64,000 nucleotides of DNA from Saccharothrix obliqua (GTDB lineage: Bacteria > Actinomycetota > Actinomycetes > Mycobacteriales > Pseudonocardiaceae), in NCBI RefSeq assembly GCF_019375475.1, contig NZ_JAHXGQ010000013.1, positions 62,001-126,000 on the forward strand, written 5' to 3'. The position numbers were made by a program, and so were the translations under genes. A model generated the notes under the pieces. That model was not told the origin of the DNA. It saw only the letters and a list, made by a program, of their open reading frames with translations, and made no database searches. How positions within the stretch are numbered: the first letter of the stretch is position 1; every line of letters starts with the position of its first letter. Positions 43,203 through 57,975 of this stretch are shown piece by piece.

Positions 43203-44789
43203 TCAGTGGAGGGGGCCGACCCGCAAGCTGTCCACAAAGGATTGGGCGTTGGCCGGCGCGTCATCGCTCGGCCGCGGGTCGCCGGGGCAGGTGGAGTGGC
43301 TGTCCGGCAGCACCCCGTCCACCAGGTAGCGGTCCACGGCGGTGGTCACGCAGCGGTTGCCGCTGCCGTAGAGGCCGTGCTTGCCCTCGTCCACCACGGT
43401 GATCAGGCTGTGCCCGAGCCGGGCCGCCATGGCGGGACCGCTCTCGTACTGCGTCTGCGTGTCGCCCTCGGCCTGCACGACCACCCCGATCGGGTACCCC
43501 TCGCGCCGTAGCTGGACCGGCGGCTCGGGCGGCGTGAAGCTGCGGAACGTGCACGTCGCCGGCGCGGCGCGGGCCACCCCGAAGCCGTACGGGTAGCGCT
43601 CCCGGAAGACCCGCATGTCCTCGTAGTAGGTCTCCAGGTCGGTGGGCCAGTCGGCCTCGCAGACGACGGTGTTGAAGACACCCGGCACCAGCTCGGTCTG
43701 CTGGACGTCCGCGAGGAGGTGGAGCGCGGTGGCCGGCGCGGCGGTGTCGAGCCGGCGGACGGCGGTCGCGATCTCGCCCCACAGCGGGCGGAAGCGCGCA
43801 CCCGTGCCCACCGCGGCGTCGAAGGCGGTCCGGGTGTGCCCGCCGATCGGCTGCGCCACCAGCCGCGCCGCGACCCGCTCCACGCTCGCGATCACCTCGG
43901 CGGCGGTCTTGCCCAGGTGGAACTTCGGGTCCCGGGCCGCGACCCACTCGGACCAGGCGTCCACGTTCCGCCGGGTCGCCACGGCTTGGCCCTTCACCTG
44001 CTCGCGCCACACCCAGTCCGGGTGCACGGAGGAGTCCAGGACGCTGCGGTCCAGGCGGTCCGGGAAGAGGCTCCCGTAGACCGCCCCGAGGTAGGTGCCG
44101 TACGAGTAGCCCAGGAAGTTGATCTTCTGCTCACCCAGGACGATGCGGATGACCTCCATGTCGCGGGCCGTGTTCGCCGTGTTGATGTGCGCCCGGATGC
44201 CGCCGCCCGAACGCCGGCACGCGTCCTCCGCCGCCCGCGCCTCGGCCGCCCACTTCGGGAAGTCGGCGTCCGCGGGCCGTGAGTCGGTGATGGTGAACAC
44301 GGGTGCCTTGCGGCAGTTCAACGCCGTTGACGCGCCCACGCCTCGCGGGTCGAACCCGATCAGGTCGTAGACGGCCGCCGGGGCCGATCGCGCGAAGAAG
44401 GCGGGGAGCGTGAGACCGGCCCCACCCGGCCCGCCCGGGTTGAGCATCAGAACGCCCCGGCGGCGGGTCGGGTCCGACGCCTTGAGCCGGCTGATGCGGA
44501 CGGAGATGTGGTCGGTCCCGGGATTCTGGTAGTTCAGCGGGACGGTGATGTCCGCGCATTCCAGGTTGTTCTCACACGGGGTCCAGGTGGGGTGCTGGGT
44601 GGTGTAAGGCGTGAGGTCCGGTGGTGTTCGGGGTGCGGTTGTGGTGGGTGCGGGTGTCGTGGGTGTGGGTGCGGGTGTTGTGGGTGTTGGGGTCTGCGCG
44701 GTTGCTGAAGAGGCCGGGAGAAGAGCGGCCATGACGAGCGCGGTGGCGGACAGCAGTGCCGCTGGATGCGGTGAAGCACACCTTCGCAC
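43203..44789 (-). CDS. Secreted alpha/beta-hydrolase, tripeptidyl aminopeptidase (TAP) family
   Basis: An exported serine peptidase-like protein (528 aa). It has a signal peptide (VRRCASPHPAALLSATALVM ... ATAQ), then a Thr/Pro-rich linker. The hydrolase domain has the oxyanion loop MLNPGGPGGAG, YDLIGFDPRGVGAS and the nucleophile in FLGYSYGTYLGAVYG. The TAP-like C-terminal domain has AEGDTQTQYESGPAMAARLG and EGKHGLYGSGNRCV, with the catalytic His. The GTG at 44789 is chosen because GGGAGG lies seven bases upstream; an ATG at 44822 precedes that site. The palindromic repeat lies between it and fasR. Confidence 0.92.
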   Translation of the reverse strand: MRRCASPHPAALLSATALVMAALLPASSATAQTPTPTTPAPTPTTPAPTTTAPRTPPDLTPYTTQHPTWTPCENNLECADITVPLNYQNPGTDHISVRISRLKASDPTRRRGVLMLNPGGPGGAGLTLPAFFARSAPAAVYDLIGFDPRGVGASTALNCRKAPVFTITDSRPADADFPKWAAEARAAEDACRRSGGGIRAHINTANTARDMEVIRIVLGEQKINFLGYSYGTYLGAVYGSLFPDRLDRSVLDSSVHPDWVWREQVKGQAVATRRNVDAWSEWVAARDPKFHLGKTAAEVIASVERVAARLVAQPIGGHTRTAFDAAVGTGARFRPLWGEIATAVRRLDTAAPATALHLLADVQQTELVPGVFNTVVCEADWPTDLETYYEDMRVFRERYPYGFGVARAAPATCTFRSFTPPEPPVQLRREGYPIGVVVQAEGDTQTQYESGPAMAARLGHSLITVVDEGKHGLYGSGNRCVTTAVDRYLVDGVLPDSHSTCPGDPRPSDDAPANAQSFVDSLRVGPLH

Positions 44790-44911
44790 GGGCAACCTCC
44801 CAGGGGTGGTGGCGGATGCCATCCGAAGGTAGGGCGGTTGCGTGGGTAGCGTCGGATGATGTCACTCGACCAGGCGGGTGGGTGGTTAAGCGAAAAACAA
44901 CGCTCGCCGCT

Positions 44912-45349: not shown

Positions 45350-46534
45350 ATGAGCGGGTCTGTGGAGGGAGCGGCGCTTTCGCCGGAGACGTTGCGGATG
45401 TTGCAGCGGGCCTCCGGGGAGCTGGCCACCGCCAGCGTTGCCGAGATGGAGGAGCGCCTGCCCTGGTTCCGGCGGATGCCCGCCGCGCAGCGGGCCGGGG
45501 TGTTGTTGCTCATCCAGAGCGGTGTCGCGGGGTTTGTTTCCTGGTTGCACGATCCGCAGCAGGCGGTTCGGCTCACGGCCGAGGCGTTCCGGTCCGCGCC
45601 CAAGGACATCTCGCGCTGGGTCAGCCTCCGGCAGACCGTGGAGCTGGTGCGGATCGCGCTCGAACTGTTCGAGCACCTGCTGCCGCGGCTGGCCGCCGAC
45701 GAGGCCGAGCGCGCCCTGCTGACCGAGGGCGTCCTCCGGTACGGCCGGGAGATCGCGTTCTCCGCCGCCACCTCCTACGCCGCCGCCGCCGAGGCCCGCG
45801 GCGCGTGGGACGCCCGGCTCGAAGCGCTCGTCGTCGACGGCATCGTGCGCGGCGACGCCGAGGAGTCCCTGCTCTCCCGCGCCACCGCGCTCGGCTGGGA
45901 CCCGGCGGCCGAGGCCACCGTGCTGGTGGGCAACCCGCCCTCGGACGACCCGCCCGCCGTGGTGTTCGAGGTGCGCAGCCGGGCCGCCCGGATGTCGCGC
46001 CCGGTGCTGCTGAGCGTCCAGGGGTCGCGGCTGGTGGTGGTGCTCGGCGGGGAGACCGAGGGCGGTGACGCGCTGGCCCGGCTCGCGGACGCGTTCGGGG
46101 CGGGCGCCGTGGTCGCCGGGCCCTCCGTGTCGAGCCTGGCCGACGCCCACCGCAGCGCCAGCGACGCCCTCTCCGGGCTGCGCGCGGTGGTGGGCTGGCC
46201 CGCCGCGCCGCGCCCCGTCCGCTCCCTGGACCTGCTGCCGGAACGGGCCCTGGCGGGCGACCCGGAGGCGGAGTGGCAGCTGGTCGACCGGATCGCCCGG
46301 CCGCTGGAGGACGCGGGCGGCGCGTTGTTGGAGACCGTGGACGCCTACCTGGAGGTGGGCGGTGTGCTGGAGGCGTGCGCGCGCAAGTTGTTCGTGCACC
46401 CCAACACGGTCCGCTACCGGCTGCGGCGGGCGACCGACCTCACCGGGCGCAACGCCAACGACCCCCGGGACGCCCTCGTGCTCCGCGTCGCGTTGTCCGT
46501 GGGCCGTCTCGCCCGTGCTCGGGGGCTGTGGTGA
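45350..46534 (+). CDS. fasR: PucR-type regulator of fatty acid synthesis (FasR-like)
   Basis: A 394-residue regulator. It has an N-terminal helical domain (ASVAEMEERLPWFRRMPAAQ) and a middle GGDEF-like/CdaR region. The C-terminal PucR helix-turn-helix reads YLEVGGVLEACARKLFVHPN followed by TVRYRLRRATDLTGRN. It lies directly upstream of fabD-fabH-acpP-fabF, the position of the Streptomyces FasR activator and of mycobacterial Rv2242, so it probably activates that operon. Binding sites may lie in the 176-bp gap before fabD. Only the position, not an experiment, supports the target. Confidence 0.9.
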   Translation: MSGSVEGAALSPETLRMLQRASGELATASVAEMEERLPWFRRMPAAQRAGVLLLIQSGVAGFVSWLHDPQQAVRLTAEAFRSAPKDISRWVSLRQTVELVRIALELFEHLLPRLAADEAERALLTEGVLRYGREIAFSAATSYAAAAEARGAWDARLEALVVDGIVRGDAEESLLSRATALGWDPAAEATVLVGNPPSDDPPAVVFEVRSRAARMSRPVLLSVQGSRLVVVLGGETEGGDALARLADAFGAGAVVAGPSVSSLADAHRSASDALSGLRAVVGWPAAPRPVRSLDLLPERALAGDPEAEWQLVDRIARPLEDAGGALLETVDAYLEVGGVLEACARKLFVHPNTVRYRLRRATDLTGRNANDPRDALVLRVALSVGRLARARGLW

Positions 46535-46626
46535 CCCCCGATCAGGTGTGACCGATCCCATTTGAGGCGTAATGCGACGCCATCGACAACACGGCACGTC
46601 GTTCGACGTTCATCTTTGCGTCACGT

Positions 46627-46643
46627 TTGTAGGAACCCTACAA
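46627..46643 (+). promoter_or_regulatory. Candidate operator before fabD
   Basis: TTGTAGG - AAC - CCTACAA is a perfect 7-bp dyad 68 bp upstream of the fabD start and about 90 bp after the fasR stop. Its position makes it a candidate FasR or other lipid-regulator site. Confidence 0.5.
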
Positions 46644-46710
46644 CGGCTGGGTTCGCGTTTCGTCTGTGGCGGCATCCCGTCAACCCGCCGAAAGCGTGTT
46701 CAGTGAGCGG

Positions 46711-47634
46711 GTGATCGCGCTTCTCGCCCCCGGACAGGGTTCCCAGACGCCCGGCATGTTCGTCCCCTGGCTCGACGTCGAGGGGGCCGGGCAGCGCATC
46801 GCCGCGTGGTCCGACGCGACCGGCCTCGACCTGCTGCGACTGGGCACCGAGGCGGACGCGGAGGAGATCAAGGACACCGCAGTCACGCAACCGCTCGTGG
46901 TCGCGCTGGCGCTGCTCGCCTTCGAGGAGCTGCGCCGCCGCGTGGACCTGCCGGCGGACACCGTCGTGGCCGGCCACTCGGTCGGCGAACTGGCCGCCGC
47001 GGCCGTCGCCGGCGTGCTCGACCCGGACGACGCGGTGGCGCTGGCCGCCGTGCGCGGTCGCGAGATGGCCGCCGCCTGCGCGCTCGCGCCCACCGGCATG
47101 GCGGCCGTGCTCGGCGGTGACGAGGACGTCGTGCTGGCCCGCCTGTCCGAGCTGGGCCTGGTCGGCGCGAACCGGAACGGCGCGGGGCAGATCGTCGCCG
47201 CCGGACCGCTCGCGGCGCTGGACGAACTGGTCGCGAACCCGCCGGAGCGGGCGAAGATCCGCAGGCTCCAGGTCGCGGGCGCGTTCCACACCGAGCACAT
47301 GGCGCCCGCCGAGGAGGCGTTGCGCGCCCGTGCCGCGGACATCGCGGTGGCCGACCCCGTGCTGCCGCTGCTCTCCAACGCCGACGGGAACCGGGTGACC
47401 ACCGGTACCGAGGTGCTGGAGCGACTCATCTCCCAGGTGACCCGCCCCGTGCGGTGGGACTCCTGCCAGGCGACGCTGGGCGCCCACGGCGTGTCGGCGG
47501 TGGTGGAACTGCCACCGGCCGGCACGTTGACGGGCCTGGCGAAGCGCGAACTGAAGGGCACTCCCACGTTGGCTCTCAAGACCCCCGACCAGCTCGACGC
47601 GGTCGTGGCGCTCATCGGGGAGGCCGCCGCATGA
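46711..47634 (+). CDS. fabD: Malonyl-CoA:ACP transacylase FabD
   Basis: Loads malonate onto ACP (307 aa). The nucleophile S90 is in VVAGHSVGELAAAAVAGVL, and the catalytic H193 is in GAFHTEHMAPAE. The N-terminal LLAPGQGSQTPGMF is intact. The GTG at 46711 gives VIALLAPGQG, the usual actinobacterial N-terminus; GTGs at 46666 and 46696 are in frame but add residues without support. Its stop overlaps the fabH ATG. First gene of the fabD-fabH-acpP-fabF operon. Confidence 0.96.
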   Translation: MIALLAPGQGSQTPGMFVPWLDVEGAGQRIAAWSDATGLDLLRLGTEADAEEIKDTAVTQPLVVALALLAFEELRRRVDLPADTVVAGHSVGELAAAAVAGVLDPDDAVALAAVRGREMAAACALAPTGMAAVLGGDEDVVLARLSELGLVGANRNGAGQIVAAGPLAALDELVANPPERAKIRRLQVAGAFHTEHMAPAEEALRARAADIAVADPVLPLLSNADGNRVTTGTEVLERLISQVTRPVRWDSCQATLGAHGVSAVVELPPAGTLTGLAKRELKGTPTLALKTPDQLDAVVALIGEAAA

Positions 47635-48608
47635 CCTCCTTCGCCGTCCCCACCGGCTCACCCGGCGCGCGCATCCTCGGCATCGGCAGCTACCAGCCGG
47701 AGACCATCGTCAGCAACCACGACCTCGCGCGGACGATGGACACCTCGGACCAGTGGATCCGGGAACGGGTGGGCATCGTCAACCGCCGGTTCGCCAAGCC
47801 GGACGAGAAGCTGGTCGACATGGCGGTCGAGGCGGGCGCGAAGGCCGTCGCCGACGCCGGGCTGGCACCGACCGACATCGGCGCCGTGCTGGTCGCGACG
47901 TGCACCATGCCGTCGCAGATCCCGAACGCCGCGGCGCAGGTCGCGGACCGCATCGGCGTGACCGGCGCGCCCGCGTTCGACCTCAACGCCGCCTGCGCGG
48001 GCTTCTGCTACGCCCTCGCGATGGCCTCCGACCTGGTCCGCGCGGGCACCGCCCGGCACGTGCTGGTGATCGGCGCCGAGAAGCTCACCGACTGGGTCGA
48101 CCCGGTCGACCGGTCCACGGCGATCATCTTCGCCGACGGCGCGGGCGCGGCGGTCGTGGGACCGTCCGACACCGCCGCGATCGGCGCGGTCGCCTGGGGC
48201 AGCGCGGGCGACCTGGTGGACATGATCCAGATCCCCGACCGGCACTCGTTCGTCCACCAGGAGGGCCAGTCGGTCTTCCGCTGGGCCACCACGCAGATCG
48301 CCCCGATCGCGTTGCGCGCGGTCGAGCTGGCGGGCATCGAGGTGTCCGATGTGGACGTCTTCGTGCCGCACCAGGCGAACCTGCGGATCGTAGAGGCGAT
48401 CGCGAAGCGGTTGCACGCCAAGGGTGCGCGTGAAGACCTCGTGATCGCACGTGACATCGTGGACTCCGGCAACACGTCCTCGGCGTCCATCCCGCTCGCG
48501 CTGGACCACATGCGCGCGGCGGGCGAGGTGCGCAGCGGGGACGTGGCGCTGCTCGTCGGCTTCGGGGCCGGGCTGTCCTACGCGGGACAGGTCGTCCGAC
48601 TGCCGTGA
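47631..48608 (+). CDS. fabH: 3-oxoacyl-ACP synthase III FabH
   Basis: Initiates fatty acid synthesis by condensing a short acyl-CoA with malonyl-ACP (325 aa). The catalytic triad is seen as C122 in DLNAACAGFCYAL, His in VFVPHQANLRIVEAIAKR and Asn in DSGNTSSASIPLAL. It overlaps fabD by ATGA. This Streptomyces-like order differs from M. tuberculosis, where fabH lies elsewhere. In related bacteria such enzymes accept branched primers, but selectivity cannot be read here. Confidence 0.96.
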   Translation: MTSFAVPTGSPGARILGIGSYQPETIVSNHDLARTMDTSDQWIRERVGIVNRRFAKPDEKLVDMAVEAGAKAVADAGLAPTDIGAVLVATCTMPSQIPNAAAQVADRIGVTGAPAFDLNAACAGFCYALAMASDLVRAGTARHVLVIGAEKLTDWVDPVDRSTAIIFADGAGAAVVGPSDTAAIGAVAWGSAGDLVDMIQIPDRHSFVHQEGQSVFRWATTQIAPIALRAVELAGIEVSDVDVFVPHQANLRIVEAIAKRLHAKGAREDLVIARDIVDSGNTSSASIPLALDHMRAAGEVRSGDVALLVGFGAGLSYAGQVVRLP

Positions 48609-48669
48609 CCCGACACCAGACTCCGGTGGGACAGCCCAGCCGGCGGGAGCTAGAAGGAAGGGATTTTCA

Positions 48670-48909
48670 GTGAGCAACGAGGACATCCAGAAGGGGCTCG
48701 CCGAGATCGTCGAGGAGGTCGCCGGTGTCGAGGCGGCCGACGTGACGTCCGACAAGTCCTTTGTGGACGACCTGGACATCGACTCGCTGTCCATGGTGGA
48801 GATCGCCGTGCAGGCCGAGGACAAGTTCGGCGTGAAGATCCCGGACGACGAGCTGGCCAACCTCAAGACCGTGGGCGATGCGGTCACCTACATCGCCAGC
48901 AACGCATGA
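48670..48909 (+). CDS. acpP: Acyl carrier protein AcpP
   Basis: A 79-residue acidic ACP whose phosphopantetheine serine is S39 in DDLDIDSLSMVEIAVQAED. It carries growing acyl chains for FAS II and also octanoate for LipB. The GTG at 48670 is preceded by GAAGGAAGGG. The stop overlaps the fabF ATG by four bases. Confidence 0.96.
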   Translation: MSNEDIQKGLAEIVEEVAGVEAADVTSDKSFVDDLDIDSLSMVEIAVQAEDKFGVKIPDDELANLKTVGDAVTYIASNA

Positions 48910-50141
48910 CCACTGGCAACGACGTCGTCGTCACCGGGCTGGGCGCCACGACCCCGCTCGGTGGCGACGTCGCCTCCACCTGGGACGCCCTGCTCGCCGG
49001 CCGCAGCGGTGTGATGCCGCTGGACGCCGACTGGGCGGTGAAGTACGAGCTGCCGGTGCGGATCTCCGCGCCGCTGGCCGTCGAGCCCACCGAGGTGCTG
49101 CCCCGCGTCGAGGCACGCCGGCTGGACCGCTGCGAGCAGGTCGCGGTGGTCGCCGCCCGCCAGGCGTGGGCGGACGCCGGGCTCGGTGACGACGGCGTCG
49201 ACCCGGAGCGGCTGGGCGTCGTGGTGGGCACCGGCATCGGCGGCGCGATGACGCTGCTGGGCCAGGACGACCTGATCGAGACCGCGGGCCTGCGCAAGGT
49301 CTCCCCGCTGACCGTACCCATGCTCATGCCCAACGGCCCGGCCGCGCACGTCGGCCTGGACCTGAAGGCGCGGGCCGGTGTGCACGCGCCGGTCTCGGCG
49401 TGCGCGTCCGGCGCGGAGGCGCTGGCCTGGGCGTGGCGGATGCTGCGCGCGGGCGAGGCCGACGTGGTCGTGGCGGGCGGCGCGGAGGCGTGCATCACCA
49501 CGATCACCATGGCGGGCTTCATCCAGGCCCGGACCATGAGCACCCGCAACGACGAGCCGGAGCGTGCTTCGCGCCCGTTCGACGTCGACCGGGACGGTTT
49601 CGTGCTCGGCGAGGGCGCCGGGATCCTGGTGCTGGAGCGCGAGGAGTTCGCCCGCGCCCGCGGCGCGCGGATCTACGGCAAGCTCGCGGGCATCGGCACC
49701 AGCTCCGACGGCCACCACATCACGGCGGCCGACCCGGAGGGCATCGGCCAGTCCCGGGCCATCGCGGCGGCGCTGCGCAGCGCGGGCGTCTCACCCGCCG
49801 ACGTCGGCCACGTGAACTGCCACGCCACGTCCACCCAGGTGGGCGACGTGATCGAACCGCAGGCCGTGCGCCGCGCGATCGGCGACCACCCGGTGCTGAC
49901 CGCGCCCAAGGGCCACCACGGCCACCTGCTCGGCGCGTCCGGCGCCGTCGAGGCGATCACCACGCTGCTGTCGGTGCGCGACGGCGTCGTGCCGCCGACC
50001 CTCAACCTGGAGAACATCGACCCGAAGGTGCAGCTGGAGGTCGTCACCGGCGAACCGCGCAAGGTCGAGCTGACCGCGGCGGTGAACAACTCGTTCGGCT
50101 TCGGCGGGCACAACGTCTCGCTGGTCTTCACCAACGCCTGA
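48906..50141 (+). CDS. fabF: 3-oxoacyl-ACP synthase II FabF (KasA/KasB type)
   Basis: Elongating ketosynthase (411 aa). The catalytic C166 is in APVSACASGAEALAW, H306 is in VNCHATSTQVGD, and the APKGHHGHLLGASG segment carries the Lys and second His. The C-terminal NNSFGFGGHNVSLVF is conserved. Last gene of the fab operon, followed by a strong hairpin. In Streptomyces a DUF3145 gene follows fabF; here the lanthipeptide cassette separates them. Confidence 0.96.
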   Translation: MTTGNDVVVTGLGATTPLGGDVASTWDALLAGRSGVMPLDADWAVKYELPVRISAPLAVEPTEVLPRVEARRLDRCEQVAVVAARQAWADAGLGDDGVDPERLGVVVGTGIGGAMTLLGQDDLIETAGLRKVSPLTVPMLMPNGPAAHVGLDLKARAGVHAPVSACASGAEALAWAWRMLRAGEADVVVAGGAEACITTITMAGFIQARTMSTRNDEPERASRPFDVDRDGFVLGEGAGILVLEREEFARARGARIYGKLAGIGTSSDGHHITAADPEGIGQSRAIAAALRSAGVSPADVGHVNCHATSTQVGDVIEPQAVRRAIGDHPVLTAPKGHHGHLLGASGAVEAITTLLSVRDGVVPPTLNLENIDPKVQLEVVTGEPRKVELTAAVNNSFGFGGHNVSLVFTNA

Positions 50142-50194: not shown

Positions 50195-50767
50195 TCAGCA
50201 GGCGGTGAACTGCGAGCCCGCGCCCTCGGTGCCGAAGTCGACGCGGAGCGAACCGGACTCCTCCTGCACCGGGTAGACGACGCGCCAGCGGATGCAGTCG
50301 GCCTGGAGTTCGGCGGGCGCGTTGGCCAGGTCCTGGGTGCTGACGAACGTCATGAGCACCCGCAGCCGGGTCGGTGACACGGTTTCCACGCGGTGCACGG
50401 CGATGGTGCCGTCGTGGGTGGACCGGTAGTCGGCCAGCCAGCGGTCGCGCGGCGTGCGGGTGACCCGTTGGGTGGTCACCGTCCGCGCCCACCGCTCGTA
50501 CTCGTGGTCGTTGATGGCGTCGAAGTAGCGCTGGAGCAGGTCCCGGACGCGTTCGCCGTCCGGGTGGCGCGCCGCGTCCGGGCTCAGCTGCACGGCGGCG
50601 CTGCCGGGCTGCGCGGACCGCGGCACGGCGGACGTGCCGGACGGCACGGCGATCCGCCCGCCCGCCGCCACGGCCGGCCGCTGGTACGCGTCACGCGCCA
50701 CCAGGCCGGTCGCCGCGGTCACCGCGACGAGCACCAGCACCAGGGGCAGCAGCAGCCGGGACGACAC
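50195..50767 (-). CDS. Membrane-anchored or secreted protein with NTF2-like domain
   Basis: A 190-residue protein with one N-terminal hydrophobic helix (RLLLPLVLVLVAVTAATGLV). An extracytoplasmic domain follows whose pattern VRDLLQRYFDAINDHEYERW suggests the SnoaL/NTF2-like fold. Two cysteines in the last third (LQADCIRW and the C-terminal QFTAC) could form a disulfide. The GTG at 50767 is my choice because the signal helix then starts at residue 4; the Shine-Dalgarno is weak. Function is unknown. It borders the lanthipeptide cassette but reads away from it. Confidence 0.72.
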   Translation of the reverse strand: MSSRLLLPLVLVLVAVTAATGLVARDAYQRPAVAAGGRIAVPSGTSAVPRSAQPGSAAVQLSPDAARHPDGERVRDLLQRYFDAINDHEYERWARTVTTQRVTRTPRDRWLADYRSTHDGTIAVHRVETVSPTRLRVLMTFVSTQDLANAPAELQADCIRWRVVYPVQEESGSLRVDFGTEGAGSQFTAC

Positions 50768-51255
50768 GCGGATCAGGTTGCCACATGCCGCCGAACGCGG
50801 GCTTGACCACCCGGACGGACCAGCGGCGGACCCGATCACTGCGGTCCAGACCACTGCCACTGGTTCGAAAAATCGGCGAACCCGAATTCGGGATCCCCTT
50901 TCCACCCCCTTTCGGAGCATTACCGGGACCAGCTCGCCGGACCAATCGCCCGATCGGCCCATCGGTGCCACCAATGGCCGACGTCCGCAGTTCTGCGGAA
51001 TTTAGCGGACCTCCGCAGGTCACCACGTGACCCGACCGGTTCCGTTTAGCTACGGCATTCCGCAGAAACAGTCGGAGCAACGTCAAACCTGGCGAACGGG
51101 TGAACCCCACTGCATCCGATACAACCCACCGTGGCCGGATGGCCCTGGTGAGACGCACGAACGGCCCAGTCAACTCCCCGATCTGGCGGATGGCCTTCCG
51201 CTGACCGACATGCGGGAATATGCCGGTCCCAAAAAGCGCAAGGAGGCGAATTGAC
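50768..51255 (+). promoter_or_regulatory. Lower-GC regulatory region upstream of the lanthipeptide cassette
   Basis: About 490 bp clearly poorer in GC than the flanks. An 11-bp inverted repeat TTCTGCGGAAT (50991-51001) / ATTCCGCAGAA (51057-51067) flanks further CCGCAG and GTTTAGC/ATTTAGC motifs. AAGGAGG (51240-51246) is the ribosome site for the synthetase gene. A 75-codon frame (51027-51254) has poor codon usage and is not called. Confidence 0.55.
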
Positions 51256-53781
51256 GTGGATCTCCGCTATGAGGCTTACTGCTTCGCGGATCGCCTCTTC
51301 TACGACGTGCAAAGCGCCGCGGAAACCGCTCCGGACGATTTTTCCCGGGTGCTGCCCGAGCTGCCCGCAGACTGGGTGAGCAGCGACCTGACCATCTGGC
51401 GCTACCTCCAGCCGAAGGACGCGGAGCTGCCGCGGCAGGGCTGGAAGATCCACGTCTCGGCCACCGTGCGCAACGCCGGCGAGGTGCTGCTCGCCGTGCA
51501 CCGGCACCTGGTGGCGCGCCGCATACCGTTCAAGTACCTGCGCACCCAGGCCATCGTGCTGGCCCGCAACTCGAAGTACGCGCCACGCGAGGCCAGCGGC
51601 AAGCTGATCACCGTCTACCCGGCCGACGAGGCGCAGCTGGAGACCACCCTCCGCGAGCTGGACGAGCTGATCGGCGGCAAGCCCGGCGCGTACATCCTCA
51701 GCGACCTGCGCTACGGCGCCGGTCCCCTCTTCGTCCGCTACGGCGGGTTCGTGGAGCAGTGGCTGGAGGTCGACGGCAAGCGGGTGCTCGCGATCGAGGG
51801 CCCGGACGGCGAACTGGTGCCGGACCTGCGCAAGCCCACGTTCTCCGTGCCGGCGTGGATCACCCCGCCCGCGTTCCTGGCCGAGCACGTCGCGGCGCGG
51901 GCGGCGGGCGACGCCGAGGCGTTCCCGTACCGCGTCACGCAGTCGCTGCACTTCTCCAACGGCGGCGGCGTGTACCGGGCGACCCGCAAGTCCGACGGCG
52001 TCGACGTGGTGCTCAAGGAGGCCCGCCCGCACGCCGGGCTGGACCGCGACGACGTGGACGCGGTCACCCGGCTGCGCCGCGAGCACGACATCCTCACCCT
52101 GCTGCGCGGCGTGCCCGGCGTGCCCGCGGCGCACGAGCACTTCACCGCGTGGGAGCACGAGTTCCTGGCGATGTCGCCGGTGCCGGGCAGGCCCATCGGC
52201 CAGTGGCTCGGGCAGCACTACCCGCTGACCCACCACGAGGTCGGCGACGTCACCGGGTACGCGCGGCGGGCGATGGCGATCGTCGCGGCCGTCGAGCGCA
52301 TCGTCGCGGCCGTGCACGCGCGCGGCGTCGTGTTCGGCGACCTGCACCCCCTCAACGTGCTGGTGGACGACGACGACTCGGTCTCGCTGATCGACTTCGA
52401 GCTGGCGTCGCGGGTCGAGGAGGGCCGCAAGCCGACGCTGGGCTCACCCGGTTTCCAGGCGCCGCCGGACCGGTCCGGGTTCGAGATCGACGAGTTCGCC
52501 CTGGCCGCGCTGCGCCTGTACGTGTTCCTGCCGCTGAACGCGGTGGTCGAGCTGGCGCCCGCCAAGCTGCGGCACCACGTCGAGTTCATCCGCCGCCGGT
52601 TCGACCTGCCCGCCGACTACTGCGACGGGATCACGGCGGTGCTGACGCCGCGCGTCGACCCACCCGCCCCGGTGTCGACGCCGCTGGACGAGCCCGCGCC
52701 GGACTGGGCCGTGGTGCGCAAGTCGGTGGCCGTCGCCATCCTCGCCTCCGCCACGCCGCACCGGCTGGACCGGCTGTTCCCCGGCGACGTCGAGCAGTTC
52801 GAGGTCGGCGGCGCGTGCTTCGCGCACGGCGCGGCGGGCGTGCTGCACGCCCTGCACGTGGCGGGCGAGGGCCGCTACCCCGAGCACGAGCGGTGGCTGC
52901 TGGACTCGCTGCGCCGCGACCCGCCCAAGGAAGCGGGTTTCTTCACCGGCGCGCACGGCATCGCGCACGTGCTCGACGAACTCGACTACCGCGACGAGGC
53001 CGACGAGCTGGTCCGCGCGTACGCCGACCTGCTGCCCGGCATCGGCGACCACGGCCTGAGCGCCGGGTTGTCCGGCATCGCCCTGAACCTGCTGCACTTC
53101 GCGCGTTCCCGGGACGACGGCGCGCTCGCCGAGCAGGCGCTCACCGCTGGACGGCGGCTGACCGACGCGCTCGCCACCGCGCCGCCGCCCGGCGACAAGG
53201 CCCGCGCGGGCCTGCTGCACGGCTGGTCCGGGCCTGCCCTGCTGTTCGTCCGGCTGCACGGCCTGACCGGCGACCCGGTGTGGCTGGAGCACGCGGAACG
53301 CGCGCTGGAACGCGACCTCGCCGAGTGCATGACCGCGCTGGACGGCTCCACCCAGGTCCGCGACGGCAACTTCCGCACCCTGCCCTACGTCGGGGTGGGC
53401 AGCGCCGGCATCGCGTTGGCGCTGCACGAGTTCGCGCGGGTCGCGCCGGACGCCGACTGCGCGGCCCGGCTGCCGGAGCTGCTCGGCGGGCTCACCGGCG
53501 AGTTCGTCATCCAACCCGCGCTGGTGCTCGGCCGGGCGGGGCTGCTCGCCGTGCTGGCCCACGCGGGCGGGCCGCGGGCCGCCGTCGACCGGCACCTGGC
53601 GGCGCTGGCCTGGCACGCCGTGCCCTACCAGGGCGGCACCGCGTTCCCCGGCATCCAGCTCCGCCGGCTGTCCATGGACCTCAACACCGGTGGCGCGGGC
53701 GTGCTGCTCGCCCTCGCCACCGCGCTGGACGGCACGCCCGTGCTGCCGTTCCTCGAAGCCCCGGCCCGCGAGGGCCGGTAG
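51256..53781 (+). CDS. Class III lanthionine synthetase LanKC (RamC/AmfT-like)
   Basis: Three-domain enzyme (841 aa) that phosphorylates Ser/Thr of a precursor, eliminates phosphate and cyclises onto Cys. Residues 1-210 are the RamC-type lyase region (YEAYCFADRLFYD, YLQPKDAELPRQGWKIHVSA, GAYILSDLRYG). Residues about 230-440 are a kinase domain (VVLKEARPH, VVFGDLHPLNVLVDD, IDFELAS). The rest is a LanC-like alpha-toroid (AHGAAGVLHAL, GLLHGWSGPALLFV) without the Cys-Cys-His zinc ligands, which places it in class III. The GTG at 51256 is nine bases after AGGAGG. The precursor gene follows 33 bp downstream. Confidence 0.93.
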   Translation: MDLRYEAYCFADRLFYDVQSAAETAPDDFSRVLPELPADWVSSDLTIWRYLQPKDAELPRQGWKIHVSATVRNAGEVLLAVHRHLVARRIPFKYLRTQAIVLARNSKYAPREASGKLITVYPADEAQLETTLRELDELIGGKPGAYILSDLRYGAGPLFVRYGGFVEQWLEVDGKRVLAIEGPDGELVPDLRKPTFSVPAWITPPAFLAEHVAARAAGDAEAFPYRVTQSLHFSNGGGVYRATRKSDGVDVVLKEARPHAGLDRDDVDAVTRLRREHDILTLLRGVPGVPAAHEHFTAWEHEFLAMSPVPGRPIGQWLGQHYPLTHHEVGDVTGYARRAMAIVAAVERIVAAVHARGVVFGDLHPLNVLVDDDDSVSLIDFELASRVEEGRKPTLGSPGFQAPPDRSGFEIDEFALAALRLYVFLPLNAVVELAPAKLRHHVEFIRRRFDLPADYCDGITAVLTPRVDPPAPVSTPLDEPAPDWAVVRKSVAVAILASATPHRLDRLFPGDVEQFEVGGACFAHGAAGVLHALHVAGEGRYPEHERWLLDSLRRDPPKEAGFFTGAHGIAHVLDELDYRDEADELVRAYADLLPGIGDHGLSAGLSGIALNLLHFARSRDDGALAEQALTAGRRLTDALATAPPPGDKARAGLLHGWSGPALLFVRLHGLTGDPVWLEHAERALERDLAECMTALDGSTQVRDGNFRTLPYVGVGSAGIALALHEFARVAPDADCAARLPELLGGLTGEFVIQPALVLGRAGLLAVLAHAGGPRAAVDRHLAALAWHAVPYQGGTAFPGIQLRRLSMDLNTGGAGVLLALATALDGTPVLPFLEAPAREGR

Positions 53782-53814
53782 CAGTAACGGTTCCCCCGAT
53801 CGAAGGAGTCCGAC

Positions 53815-53979
53815 ATGGAGTTCATCCTCGACCTTCAGGACCTGGAGACCCCCGAGGTCCAGTCCAACGCGATGGCCAGCGGCGGCAGCAGCGGCGGTGG
53901 CGGCGGCAGCACGACCGCGTCCAACGCCTCCCTGCTGCTCCCGTGCAGCCACTCCACCGTGAGCCTCATCCTCTGCTGA
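53815..53979 (+). CDS. Class III lanthipeptide precursor (SapB/AmfS-like), 54 aa
   Basis: A 54-residue peptide with GAAGGAG (53802-53808) before its ATG. The leader has the class III recognition helix MEFILDLQDLETPE, then a Gly/Ser-rich spacer (residues 22-32). The core region TASNASLLLPCSHSTVSLIL ending in Cys54 resembles SapB (RASLLLCGDSSLSITTC). Ring motifs are S36-x2-S39-x4-C44 and S47-x2-S50-x3-C54; the second is the canonical S-x2-S-x3-C and the first is one residue longer. SapB-type products are surfactants that help aerial hyphae emerge; the same role is inferred here. Confidence 0.92.
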   Translation: MEFILDLQDLETPEVQSNAMASGGSSGGGGGSTTASNASLLLPCSHSTVSLILC

Positions 53980-54133
53980 CACACCGGCGGATGAGCACGG
54001 GGTGAGCGGCGCAGGCGAAGTGCGCCGCTCACCGACCTCGCGAGGGTCCGGCGACGGCCACCCCGGGCGCACACCCGGGACGGCCGGAGCCGGGCCCTCG
54101 CCCATGATGCGCCACCGACCCGCTGGAGCCCCG

Positions 54134-55726
54134 ATGTTGTTGAGATCGGTCGTGCTGCGCGACCCGCGCTGGCTGCTGCTCGCGGTGAACGCGCTGCTCG
54201 CCACGGCGGCGGGCCTGCTGCTGCCCGCGGCGCTGGCGGGTGCGGTGGACGCGGCGCTCGGCGGGCGGCTGGACCCGCCCGCCGTGCTGCGGCTGGTGGC
54301 GTTGGCGGGCGTGGAGCTGATCGGCGACGCGATCGGCGTCGTGCTGGCGGCGGCGATCACGGCACGCGGCACGGCGTGGCTGCGGCACCGGCTCACCACG
54401 CGGCTGCTGGCGCTGGGCCACCCCGGGCGGTTCGAGGCCGGTGACGCGGTGAGCAGGCTGACCGGCGACAGCGCCATCGCGGGCGGGTTCGCCGTGCTGC
54501 TGGTGAACCTGGGCATCTCGCTGCTCACGGCGGTCGGCGCGGTGACGGCGCTGGCGCTGCTGGACTGGCGGCTGGCCGCGGTGTTCCTGCTCAGCGTGCC
54601 GCTGGCGCTGCTGCTGGTGCGGTCGCACCTCCGGCTGACCGCCGACGACGTGGCGACCTACCAGGAGGTGTCGGGCGAGCTGTCCGCCCGGCTGCTGGAC
54701 GCGGTCGGCGGGTTGCGCACCATCGCCGCCGCCGGCCGGGCCGACCAGGAGGCCGCGCGGGTGTTGCGCCCGCTGCCCCGGCTCGCGGCGGCGGGCGTCG
54801 GCATGTGGCGCACGCAGGCGCGGATGATCTGGCGGGCGGGGCTGCTGCTGCCCGCCGTGGAGCTGGCGGTGCTGACCGCCGCCGGGTTCGGCGTGGTCGC
54901 GGGTCGGTTGAGCGTGGGCGACGTGCTGGCCGCGCTGGGCTACGCGGGCCTCGGCATGGCGGTCGTGGGTCAGGCGCAGGTGCTGACCGCCGTGCAACGC
55001 GCGCGGGCCGCCGCGGCGAGGGTGGCCGAGGTGCTGGACGCCGAACCCGCGCCGGCGCCCGCGCCCGCCGACGCGCCGCCGGGCGTGGTGGAGCTGCGCG
55101 GGGTGTGCGTGCCGGGCGCGCTGCACGACGTGGACCTGGTGGTGCCCGCCGGGGCGTGCGTGGCCGTGGTGGGCCGTTCGGGCAGCGGGAAGTCGGCGTT
55201 GGCGGCGGTGATCGGCGGGCTGACCGCGCCCGCGTCCGGGCAGGTCGCCCGGGGCGGCTCCGTGGGTTACGCGTTCGAGCGGCCCGCGTTGCTCGGCGGG
55301 ACCGTCGCGGACGGCGTGGGTTACGGCGTCACGCCGGACCGGGACCGGGTGGTCGCCGCGTGCCGGGCGGCGCAGGTGCACGACGTGGTGGTGCGCCTGC
55401 CCGACGGCTACGACACGCCCATGGCGGACGCGCCGCTGTCCGGGGGCGAGGCGCAGCGGCTCGGGCTGGCGCGGGCCGTCGTGCGCGACCCGCAGGTGCT
55501 GGTGCTGGACGACGCGACGGCCAGTTTGGACACCGTCACGGAGTCCACCGTGGAGCACGCGCTGGCGTCCGCGCTGCCCGGCCGCACCAGGGTCGTGGTG
55601 ACGCACCGGGCGGCGACCGCGCGCCGCGCGGACCTCGTGGTGTGGCTGGCGGGCGGTCGGGTGCGCGCGGTGGACGCGCACCGGTCGTTGTGGGAGGACG
55701 CGGAGTACCGGGCGGTGTTCGGCTGA
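54134..55726 (+). CDS. ABC transporter half-unit of the lanthipeptide cassette (RamA/AmfB-like)
   Basis: Fused membrane and ATPase half-transporter (530 aa). Six membrane helices fill residues 1-310. The nucleotide-binding domain has Walker A VVGRSGSGKSALAA near residue 345, the signature LSGGEAQRLGLARAV, Walker B VLVLDDATASLD and an H-loop VVVTHRAA. The start is the ATG at 54134 (MLLRSVVLRDPRWL), with GGAG five bases upstream; longer frames from 54002 have Arg/Pro/Gly-rich leaders. Its stop and the next ATG overlap (TGATG). It probably exports the modified peptide as a heterodimer. Confidence 0.9.
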   Translation: MLLRSVVLRDPRWLLLAVNALLATAAGLLLPAALAGAVDAALGGRLDPPAVLRLVALAGVELIGDAIGVVLAAAITARGTAWLRHRLTTRLLALGHPGRFEAGDAVSRLTGDSAIAGGFAVLLVNLGISLLTAVGAVTALALLDWRLAAVFLLSVPLALLLVRSHLRLTADDVATYQEVSGELSARLLDAVGGLRTIAAAGRADQEAARVLRPLPRLAAAGVGMWRTQARMIWRAGLLLPAVELAVLTAAGFGVVAGRLSVGDVLAALGYAGLGMAVVGQAQVLTAVQRARAAAARVAEVLDAEPAPAPAPADAPPGVVELRGVCVPGALHDVDLVVPAGACVAVVGRSGSGKSALAAVIGGLTAPASGQVARGGSVGYAFERPALLGGTVADGVGYGVTPDRDRVVAACRAAQVHDVVVRLPDGYDTPMADAPLSGGEAQRLGLARAVVRDPQVLVLDDATASLDTVTESTVEHALASALPGRTRVVVTHRAATARRADLVVWLAGGRVRAVDAHRSLWEDAEYRAVFG

Positions 55727-57423
55727 TGGGACCGTACTTCCGGGCACTGGCCGGCCGGCGGCGGGCGGTGCTGGCGCTGCTGGGCTGGTCGGTGCTGGAG
55801 GGCGTGCCGGCGTTGCTGTCCGGGCGGCTGGTCGGGTTGGCCGTGGACCGGGGGTTCGCGGTCGGCGACGTGCGCACCGGGGTGGCGTGGCTGGTGGCGT
55901 TCGCGGTCGTCGCGGTGCTCGGCGGTTTCGGGTTGCGGCAGGTGTTCACGCGGCTCGGCGACGTCGTCGAACCACTGCGTGACGCGCTGGTCACGACCGT
56001 GGTGCGCGGTGTCCTGCATGACGGCCGCGCACACCGCCGGCGGCCCGACGCGAGCGCCGTCGCGCGGATCACCCGGCACGTGGAGGTGGTGCGCGACGCG
56101 ACCGCCGGGCTGCTCGTGCAGGCCCGCGCGTTGCTGGTGACCACGACCGCCGCGCTGGTCGGCCTGGCCACCACGGTGTCCTCCGTGGCGTGGCTGGTGG
56201 TGCTGCCCGTGGTGGCGGCGCTGCTATTGTTCGGCGCCCTGCTGCCGTCGCTGGCGCGCGGCCAGCGCGCGCTGGTGCTGGCGGACGAGGGCGCCGCCGA
56301 GGCCGCGGGCGCGGTGCTGCTCGGGGTGCGCGACGTCGTGGCGTGCGACGCGCGGGACCACGCCGCGGCGGACGTGCGGCGGCAGGTGGACCGGCAGGCG
56401 CGGGCGGCGGTGCGGGTGGCGTGGGCGTCCGCGCTGCGCGGCGCGGTCATCGGGGTCGGCGGTTTCCTGCCGCTGGCGCTGCTGCTGGTGCTCGCGCCCG
56501 GCATGGTCGCGCGCGGCGCGCTGAGCGCGGGCGACGTGCTGGCCGCCGTCGTGTACCTGGGCACCAGCGTGCAGCCGGCGTTGCGCCGGCTCGCGGACAC
56601 CACCAGCACGGTCGTGCTGCGGCTGGCGGTCGCGTTGCGCCGGCTCGCCGAGGTCGCGCCGGACGTGCCGCCCGCGGGCGACCTGGTGCCCGACGGCGGC
56701 GGCGTGGAGCTGCGCGGCGTGACCTTCGGGTGGGGCGAGCACGCCGAGCCCGTGGTGCGTGACCTGGACCTGGCGCTGCCGCCCGGCACGCACCTCGCCG
56801 TGGTCGGCCCGAGCGGCATCGGCAAGTCGACGCTCGCGAGCCTGGTCACCGGCCTGGTCGAGCCGCGCGCAGGCGTCGTCCTGCTCGGCGGCGCGCCGGT
56901 GCGGCTGGTGCGGCCGGCGGAGCGGAGCAGGCGGATCGCGCTGGTGCCGCAGGAGACGTACCTGTTCACCGGGACCGTGCGGGAGAACCTGGCGTTGTTC
57001 GCGCCGGACGCGTCGGACGACGAGCTGCTGGCGGCCGTGGCCGCGGTCGGCGCGGCGGACGTCGTGGACCGGCTCGGCGGGTTGGCGGGCGAGGTCGGTC
57101 ACGCCGGTGGCGGGTTGTCCGCGGGCGAGGCGCAGCTGCTGGCCGCGGCGCGGGTGTACGCGTGCCCGGCGGACGTGGTGGTGCTGGACGAGGCGACGTC
57201 CAACCTGGACCCGGCGGCGGAGGCCGTGGTGGAGCGGGCGTTCGCCGCGCGGGGCGGGGTGCTGGTGGTGATCGCGCACCGGCTGTCGTCGGCGCTGCGG
57301 GCCGACCGGGTGCTGGTCATGGACGGCGGCGCGCCGCTGCTCGGCTCGCACGACGAGCTGATGGCGGGATCGGCCGCGTACGCCGAGCTGATGGCCGCCT
57401 GGCAGCCGGTCTCGGCGGGGTGA
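55726..57423 (+). CDS. ABC transporter half-unit of the lanthipeptide cassette (RamB/AmfA-like)
   Basis: Second half-transporter (565 aa). A membrane domain begins MGPYFRALAGRRRAVLALLG. The ATPase domain has Walker A VVGPSGIGKSTLAS near residue 361, a Q-loop in LVPQETYLF, a modified signature LSAGEAQLLAAARVY, Walker B VVVLDEATSNLD and H-loop VIAHRLSS. It overlaps the preceding gene by one base. No peptidase C39 domain is present, so leader removal must use another protease, as in other class III systems. A 16-bp hairpin follows. Confidence 0.9.
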   Translation: MGPYFRALAGRRRAVLALLGWSVLEGVPALLSGRLVGLAVDRGFAVGDVRTGVAWLVAFAVVAVLGGFGLRQVFTRLGDVVEPLRDALVTTVVRGVLHDGRAHRRRPDASAVARITRHVEVVRDATAGLLVQARALLVTTTAALVGLATTVSSVAWLVVLPVVAALLLFGALLPSLARGQRALVLADEGAAEAAGAVLLGVRDVVACDARDHAAADVRRQVDRQARAAVRVAWASALRGAVIGVGGFLPLALLLVLAPGMVARGALSAGDVLAAVVYLGTSVQPALRRLADTTSTVVLRLAVALRRLAEVAPDVPPAGDLVPDGGGVELRGVTFGWGEHAEPVVRDLDLALPPGTHLAVVGPSGIGKSTLASLVTGLVEPRAGVVLLGGAPVRLVRPAERSRRIALVPQETYLFTGTVRENLALFAPDASDDELLAAVAAVGAADVVDRLGGLAGEVGHAGGGLSAGEAQLLAAARVYACPADVVVLDEATSNLDPAAEAVVERAFAARGGVLVVIAHRLSSALRADRVLVMDGGAPLLGSHDELMAGSAAYAELMAAWQPVSAG

Positions 57424-57471: not shown

Positions 57472-57975
57472 TCAGCCGACGCGGTGCAGCCAGGTGACGG
57501 GCGCGCCGTCGCCCGCGCGCCGGAACGGTTCCAGGGCGTCGTCCCACGCCGCGCCGAGGATCTCGTCAACGCCGTGCGCGAACGACTCGCCGCCGCGGCT
57601 GCGGGCGGCCAGGGCCCGCAACTGGTCCTCGGAGACCACGATGTCGCCGTTCGCGCTGGTCCGGGCGTGCCACAGGCCGAGCACGGGCGCGAAGCAGTAG
57701 CGGACGCCGTCGACTCCCGGGCTCGGGTCCTCGGTGACCTCGAAGCGCAGCATCGGCCACGCGCGCAGCGCGGCCACGAGTCGGGCGCCGGTGCCGGCGT
57801 CGCCGGACCACGCGCACTCGGCGCGCAACTGGCCCGGCGCGGCGGGCTGCGCCGCCCACTTCAGGTCCGCCCGTTCGCCGAGGGTGCCCGAGATCGCCCA
57901 CTCGACGTGCGGGCAGACCGCAGACGGCGACGAGTGGACGTAGACCACGCCACTGGTGCTGCCACGGGTGCTCAT
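57472..57975 (-). CDS. DUF3145 family protein
   Basis: A 167-residue soluble actinobacterial protein. It begins MSTRGSTSGVVYVHSSPSAV and has CPHVEWAISGTLG, LRFEVTEDPSPGVDGVRYCF and AWDDALEPFRRAG, typical of DUF3145. In Streptomyces this gene follows fabF, as I recall, so here the conserved pair is split by the lanthipeptide cassette. The ATG follows GGAGG. Function is unknown; linkage to fatty acid synthesis is only contextual. Confidence 0.9.
   Translation of the reverse strand: MSTRGSTSGVVYVHSSPSAVCPHVEWAISGTLGERADLKWAAQPAAPGQLRAECAWSGDAGTGARLVAALRAWPMLRFEVTEDPSPGVDGVRYCFAPVLGLWHARTSANGDIVVSEDQLRALAARSRGGESFAHGVDEILGAAWDDALEPFRRAGDGAPVTWLHRVG

Follow-up and report, generated by a model that had tools for sequence, protein, structure and literature searches.

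A SapB/AmfS-type class III lanthipeptide cassette at a conserved chromosomal site in Saccharothrix obliqua, with a candidate hairpin between its precursor and transporter genes

SapB-type peptides are surface peptides that help filamentous soil bacteria to grow into the air. The closest described systems, ramCSAB/ramR of Streptomyces coelicolor (SapB) and amf of Streptomyces griseus (AmfS), resemble the locus studied here in gene order, in a LanKC synthetase without zinc and in two half-transporters (PMC4255298, PMC13380574; all articles are cited here from excerpts). An earlier survey described SapB-like clusters as sporadic outside Streptomyces and, in the portion available, ramR as present in streptomycetes only (PMC4255298). 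From the genus Saccharothrix itself, a different class III cluster, tam, has been published in Saccharothrix tamanrassetensis (PMC10206099). Such noursin-type clusters (nor, tam) also encode a class III LanKC. However, the NorA core, with its single Cys, yields one labionin plus one histidinobutyrine, whereas the core described below has two Cys in two SapB-like units; NorKC groups separately from RamC (PMC10206099), and tam is set apart from our locus by its description. In the excerpts of PMC10206099 and PMC8317367, content related to Saccharothrix or SapB concerns other clusters or strains, and we found no title or abstract describing the present cassette or its hairpin.

We analysed a 64,000-nucleotide stretch of S. 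obliqua DNA, here called the window. On its plus strand, genes for LanKC, a precursor peptide, half-transporter 1 and half-transporter 2 follow each other in the order ramC-ramS-ramA-ramB, as the original prediction had stated. Family models and gene order together bear out its claim of a complete class III cassette: judged by sequence, this is a complete gene set for a SapB/AmfS-type class III lanthipeptide. While this SapB-like identity stands, the presentation of the locus as a singular find was overstated, because the precursor belongs to a family that already has entries in NCBIfam and Pfam, and because the cassette counts as near-core for its genus. The cassette is thus a further SapB/AmfS relative, and the new element appears to be its putative cis-control, namely a hairpin, SL1, and an upstream motif pair, A/B. 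Unlike ram and amf, it is fixed at a fab locus, carries SL1 and the A/B motifs, has no linked RamR-like gene and contains no TTA codon in its four genes.

The lanKC gene (51256..53781, plus strand) starts with GTG at 51256, preceded by AAGGAGG. Its product, a class III lanthionine synthetase (lyase-kinase-cyclase), matches the class III model NF038151 over its full length with 1031.7 bits (cut-off 575) but the class IV model with just 361.9 bits (cut-off 650). The RamC_N domain is recognised at E 1.3e-75, and in structure alignment the nearest solved structures are class III LanKCs. Kinase and lyase residues, which the original prediction had left for an alignment to check, are in place, with K107, K116, K254, D362, N367 and D380 invariant in nine homologues. 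Their catalytic roles are ones that we presume, except for the lyase lysines and the DF(G/E) motif. These latter are discussed for ThurKC in PMC10604976. When the sequence is aligned by eye with ThurKC, using the mapping from the same article, Gly713, Val757 and Leu758 occupy the former zinc-ligand positions and the five Cys of the protein lie outside them, in agreement with the predicted cyclase domain free of zinc ligands.

The precursor gene (53815..53979, plus strand) encodes the expected 54 residues with the leader motif ILDLQDLE. Comparison with class III families, which had been proposed, gave matches above cut-off to the SapB/AmfS model NF033212 (51.6 bits; cut-off 25) and to PF19402 RamS (41.2 bits; cut-off 24.3), and its likeness to SapB and AmfS is set by these family models. 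A Gly/Ser-rich linker of variable length joins the leader to a core of two hydrophobic Ser/Ser/Cys units, SNASLLLPC (S36xxS39xxxxC44) and STVSLILC (S47xxS50xxxC54). Across 23 loci (the window, 21 congeners and the genome G031), the second unit is always SxxSxxxC, and the His directly before it is kept in 22. The first unit is SxxSxxxxC in 19 of these loci and SxxSxxxC in four. The excerpt of PMC13380574 calls SxxSxxxC common, whereas the first unit in the window has four residues before Cys; Amycolatopsis has this spacing too, so it is no strain oddity.

Both predicted ABC half-transporters lie downstream of the precursor. The RamA-like half-transporter 1 (54134..55726, plus strand) most likely starts at ATG 54134 rather than at GTG 54002 of the longest frame, because the preceding interval varies in length and frame among loci and carries stem-loops, and because GGAG stands just before this ATG. 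A CATGATG sequence was also considered as the start; by eye, it is in frame in the window but out of frame elsewhere and thus gives no shared start. The RamB-like half-transporter 2 (55726..57423, plus strand) overlaps its neighbour through TGATG. Among 17 nearby reading frames, Pfam recognised no protease beside the cassette, which matches the original prediction; for class III leaders, M1 proteases with genes elsewhere in the genome have been documented to perform the cleavage, and an unlinked protease is usual (PMC10885120). The nearest peptidase-like gene, a candidate TAP-like secreted peptidase (43203-44822, minus strand), lies beyond the fab locus as seen from the cassette. It is not tied to the cassette, since it also stands beside the empty sites of two cassette-free congeners (G008 and G015).

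To the left, outside the cassette, lie genes for a PucR-type regulator, fabD, fabH, acpP and fabF (45350..50141, plus strand); we take the regulator to be FasR. A DUF3145 gene (57472..57975, minus strand), likewise outside the cassette, forms the right border of the conserved site. Between fabF and DUF3145 there is also a conserved unnamed ORF (50195-50974, minus strand), which is present in cassette-free genomes as well. Its product has 43-71% identity in four relatives and a hydrophobic stretch at the N terminus, matches no Pfam family at E 0.001, and is probably a secreted or membrane-anchored protein.

Of 25 same-genus genomes, 22 carry the cassette between this ORF and DUF3145, as does G031. 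Such a recurrence of one gene set at one site among congeners is beyond chance. The three remaining congeners (G008, G015 and G019) have an empty site, with just 74-262 nt between the ORF and DUF3145, and no RamC_N match in their genomes. Among ten additional loci belonging to other genera or families, both border genes stand side by side without the cassette in eight, fabF directly adjoins DUF3145 in one, and DUF3145 alone was recognised in one. Among 80 named LanKC loci, 16 share the fab/DUF3145 site (five Saccharothrix, ten Lentzea and one Umezawaea); for the other 64, no DUF3145 match was found in the stretches examined, some of them short. Cassettes of Amycolatopsis, Actinokineospora, Streptoalloteichus and other Pseudonocardiaceae have a LanKC 53-61% identical to that of the window (SL1-matching loci checked) and share the precursor type, SL1 and a CATNNT tail. 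In contrast, they lack the A/B pair, and they appear to occupy another site, because the stretches examined contain no DUF3145 match.

Distances between LanKC proteins follow those between housekeeping proteins (r 0.923, n=31; none of 2,000 permutations as high), which by sequence shows mostly vertical inheritance of a near-core trait in the genus. In a tree of five housekeeping proteins, G008 and G015 are nested well inside the genus and G019 falls within cassette-bearing lineages (support 0.885); these positions suggest that the cassette-free congeners arose by at least two losses. In two loci (L058 of G003 and L059 of G001), LanKC groups with L053 and L055 while the housekeeping genes place the genomes elsewhere, and the first ring unit differs, so that some exchange of cassettes is possible. 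These results document SapB-type peptides as a near-core trait, for the most part vertically inherited, which Saccharothrix, Lentzea and Umezawaea carry at a single chromosomal site, and the cassette-free species offer natural comparison material.

Between precursor and transporters, SL1 (54001..54033, plus strand; GGTGAGCGGCGCA-GGCGAAG-TGCGCCGCTCACC) forms a stem of 13 bp with a 7-nt loop. It is followed by a second stem-loop, SL2 (54042..54099, plus strand), which varies among species and is weak or absent as such in L041, L042, L046 and L047, and by a conserved CATGATGCGCC motif (54103..54113, plus strand). The SL1 core pattern and the motif CAT[GC]ATG[CG]G each occur in all 34 loci of a Saccharothrix/Lentzea/Umezawaea group, from which L138, L139, L141, L142 and L147 were left out as repeats or near repeats. 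The precursor-transporter region folds better than its shuffled versions (z -6.46; 0 of 200 shuffles as good). In an alignment of 31 of these loci (all but L050, L056 and L060), 95.3% of cells in SL1 and SL2 are paired and 8 of 23 pairs show two-sided change; against 500 shuffles, four covariation measures were reached by none and the number of further pair types by 16. A family-wide alignment of 21 chosen SL1 copies gave 97.3% pairing and two-sided change in 9 of 13 pairs. Here, too, four measures exceed all shuffles, but the variety of pair types does not (462 of 500 shuffles), which counts against covariation. Pairing of CATGATGCGCC with an SL1 arm was considered and rejected, as in Lentzea SL1 reads GGCATA/TATGCC while the motif keeps TGCGCC (by eye).

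We searched 50 chosen LanKC sources with an SL1 covariance model built from 11 copies. At E <=0.01, it matched 20 other LanKC loci, 14 outside the model alignment and six in it, all within about 320 nt after lanKC. Their genera are ones that we take to belong to the Pseudonocardiaceae, the same-family genome G033 needing no such assumption. The model matched at the cassette in 21 of 24 same-genus genomes, the three without a match being cassette-free. At E 1e-5, the model has matches in 38 of 150 family genomes, 36 of them with SL1 10-70 nt behind a SapB/AmfS precursor (adjacency judged by eye); G184 and G185 have an SL1 match and no precursor match. Conversely, a precursor-family match is present in 76 of the 150, above the cut-off in 74, and 40 of the 76 lack SL1 at E 1e-5, which counts against a general association. 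The stricter filters of this search do lose some copies, because G033 was missed here yet matches in the 50-locus search. In 14 of 18 loci from other genera, CATNNT follows SL1 within 20 nt, compared with 383 of 20,000 random 20-mers. Rfam gave no credible match to the region; its one hit, to a microRNA over the precursor gene (E 0.89), is due to chance. In the S. obliqua genome, the exact form of SL1 occurs in one place, plus one with two mismatches, which set aside a general repeat; the model also reports a single weak hit there (32 bits), and weak hits in some other genomes.

Upstream of lanKC, the sequence has mostly diverged among 22 aligned loci but keeps CGTTTAG and AAACNTNGC with CGGGTG, 42-45 bp apart. 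In the window these are motif A (CGTTTAG, 51043..51049, plus strand), about 213 bp before the lanKC start, and motif B (AAACCTGGCGAACGGGTG, 51085..51102, plus strand), about 171 bp before it; by eye, motif B approximately repeats the motif A region in inverted orientation. Motif A is present in 27 and motif B in 33 of the 34 group loci. Used as a pattern, chosen after the upstream alignment had been seen, the pair occurs in 26 of the 34 group loci, in none of 65 other LanKC loci and in one of 212 window tiles (both strands). A sigma-70 scan flagged no promoter. With the regulator beside the Kitasatospora cassette L193 as probe, called RamR-like from its position and type, no RamR-like gene was found at E 1e-10 in window positions 40001-64000 or in 22 cassette stretches (L040-L061). 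The linked RamR-type regulator of a ram/amf-type locus is therefore missing, as predicted, and none of the 39 matches in the S. obliqua genome lies on the contig of the window. The further claim that control must differ from that of Streptomyces went too far. Different control is plausible, given the upstream motif pair and because all Saccharothrix, Lentzea and Umezawaea stretches examined are without an adjacent RamR-like gene, but it is unproved. Together, the A/B motifs and SL1 provide two testable cis-elements for an operon that would run without a linked RamR. Matches to the L193-type regulator do lie near cassettes in Microbispora, Planotetraspora, Micromonospora, Kribbella and others, including the same-family genome G032 (L132), and seven Micromonospora stretches (L177, L178, L184, L186, L192, L194 and L198) each have two neighbouring RamR-like response regulator matches. 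Such neighbours in other families would extend the earlier survey, as far as its excerpt goes (PMC4255298).

We favour, with a probability of about 0.72, a SapB-like morphogen cassette in which a hairpin keeps transporter levels below those of the precursor. A regulator acting at the A/B motifs would start transcription upstream of lanKC, and SL1, with SL2, would partly terminate or protect the lanKC-precursor message, so that the precursor would be made in excess over the transporter. LanKC would then bind the ILDLQDLE leader, phosphorylate Ser/Thr and eliminate, and, independently of zinc, close one ring (labionin or lanthionine) at each of SxxSxxxxC and SxxSxxxC. Export of the peptide would need both half-transporters acting together, the leader would be trimmed by an unlinked protease of the host, and the hydrophobic product would coat hyphae and aid aerial growth, like SapB in Streptomyces. 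Against this account, three congeners live cassette-free and one cassette (in G013) has a frame-broken LanKC.

SL1 itself is best read as an RNA hairpin that would separate the lanKC-precursor message from a weaker transporter message. It has the GC-rich stem of an intrinsic terminator; a terminator scan did not flag it. A T-rich tail follows it in 9 of 19 loci of other genera (one cut by a contig end), compared with 98 of 5,000 random 20-mers, but in just 3 of 34 loci of the Saccharothrix/Lentzea/Umezawaea group, which speaks against termination there. Clustered hairpins can terminate with less need for poly-U, and tandem hairpins are cited in Mycobacterium smegmatis (PMC8355165, excerpt). 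The same letters could instead form a DNA operator, the palindromic site of a dimeric regulator: the palindrome is perfect, 9 of its 13 pairs are invariant within the group, so that letters are conserved besides symmetry, the model matches both strands, and compensatory change would also fit a symmetrical operator. We consider this rather unlikely in view of the T-rich tails in other genera, the single exact copy in the genome, which argues against a wider SL1 regulon, and the position of SL1 just behind the precursor stop, where other actinomycete cassettes bear hairpins of unrelated letters. In those cassettes, a perfect stem of at least 10 bp lies within 150 nt of the precursor in 19 of 43 loci compared with 8 of 1,720 shuffles; 54 loci were scanned, the precursor pattern was found in 43 and not in 11, and mismatched stems, as in Amycolatopsis, were missed. 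A bolder reading of the RNA, which we regard as distinctly doubtful, is that SL1, SL2 and the CATNNT tail form a dedicated control element of Pseudonocardiaceae SapB-type operons beyond a leaky terminator. If so, it might sense a developmental cue or bind a protein and switch the transporters on, thereby timing morphogen release in a group without linked RamR.

Control by a RamR-type regulator encoded elsewhere in the genome is suggested by two unlinked genes that match the L193 regulator at 49% and 47%, other matches being at 43% or less. Neither candidate tracks the cassette across 60 genomes, which makes this quite improbable. Close orthologues of the candidate on contig C47 are present in all three cassette-free congeners and missing from nine cassette-bearing ones (G002, G003, G004, G007, G012, G014, G016, G023 and G024); the candidate on C12, which by our own reading follows a histidine-kinase-like frame, also occurs in the cassette-free congeners, and G004, G010, G012 and G014 lack its close form. 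Work by Gaskell et al. in 2012 on SapB regulation may bear on control within the operon. As for the product, other class III peptides differ in activity, and noursin binds copper (PMC10206099, excerpt), so it might serve mainly as an antimicrobial or signalling lanthipeptide. We judge this unlikely, since the best matches are to the SapB/AmfS family models, the core is strongly hydrophobic and contains two SapB-like units, and the near-core, mostly vertical spread in hypha-forming genera is unlike that of a patchy weapon. By analogy with SapB, a surface morphogen is the likeliest product.

Two observations lie beside this argument. In G013 (L060), the RamC_N match is split over two frames, and LanKC therefore looks broken or misassembled; a run of N stands between precursor and first transporter in the same locus. 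The S. obliqua genome also encodes a second lanthionine synthetase (L063:8604-11159, contig C23), nearest to class IV LanL with 622.1 bits (cut-off 650).
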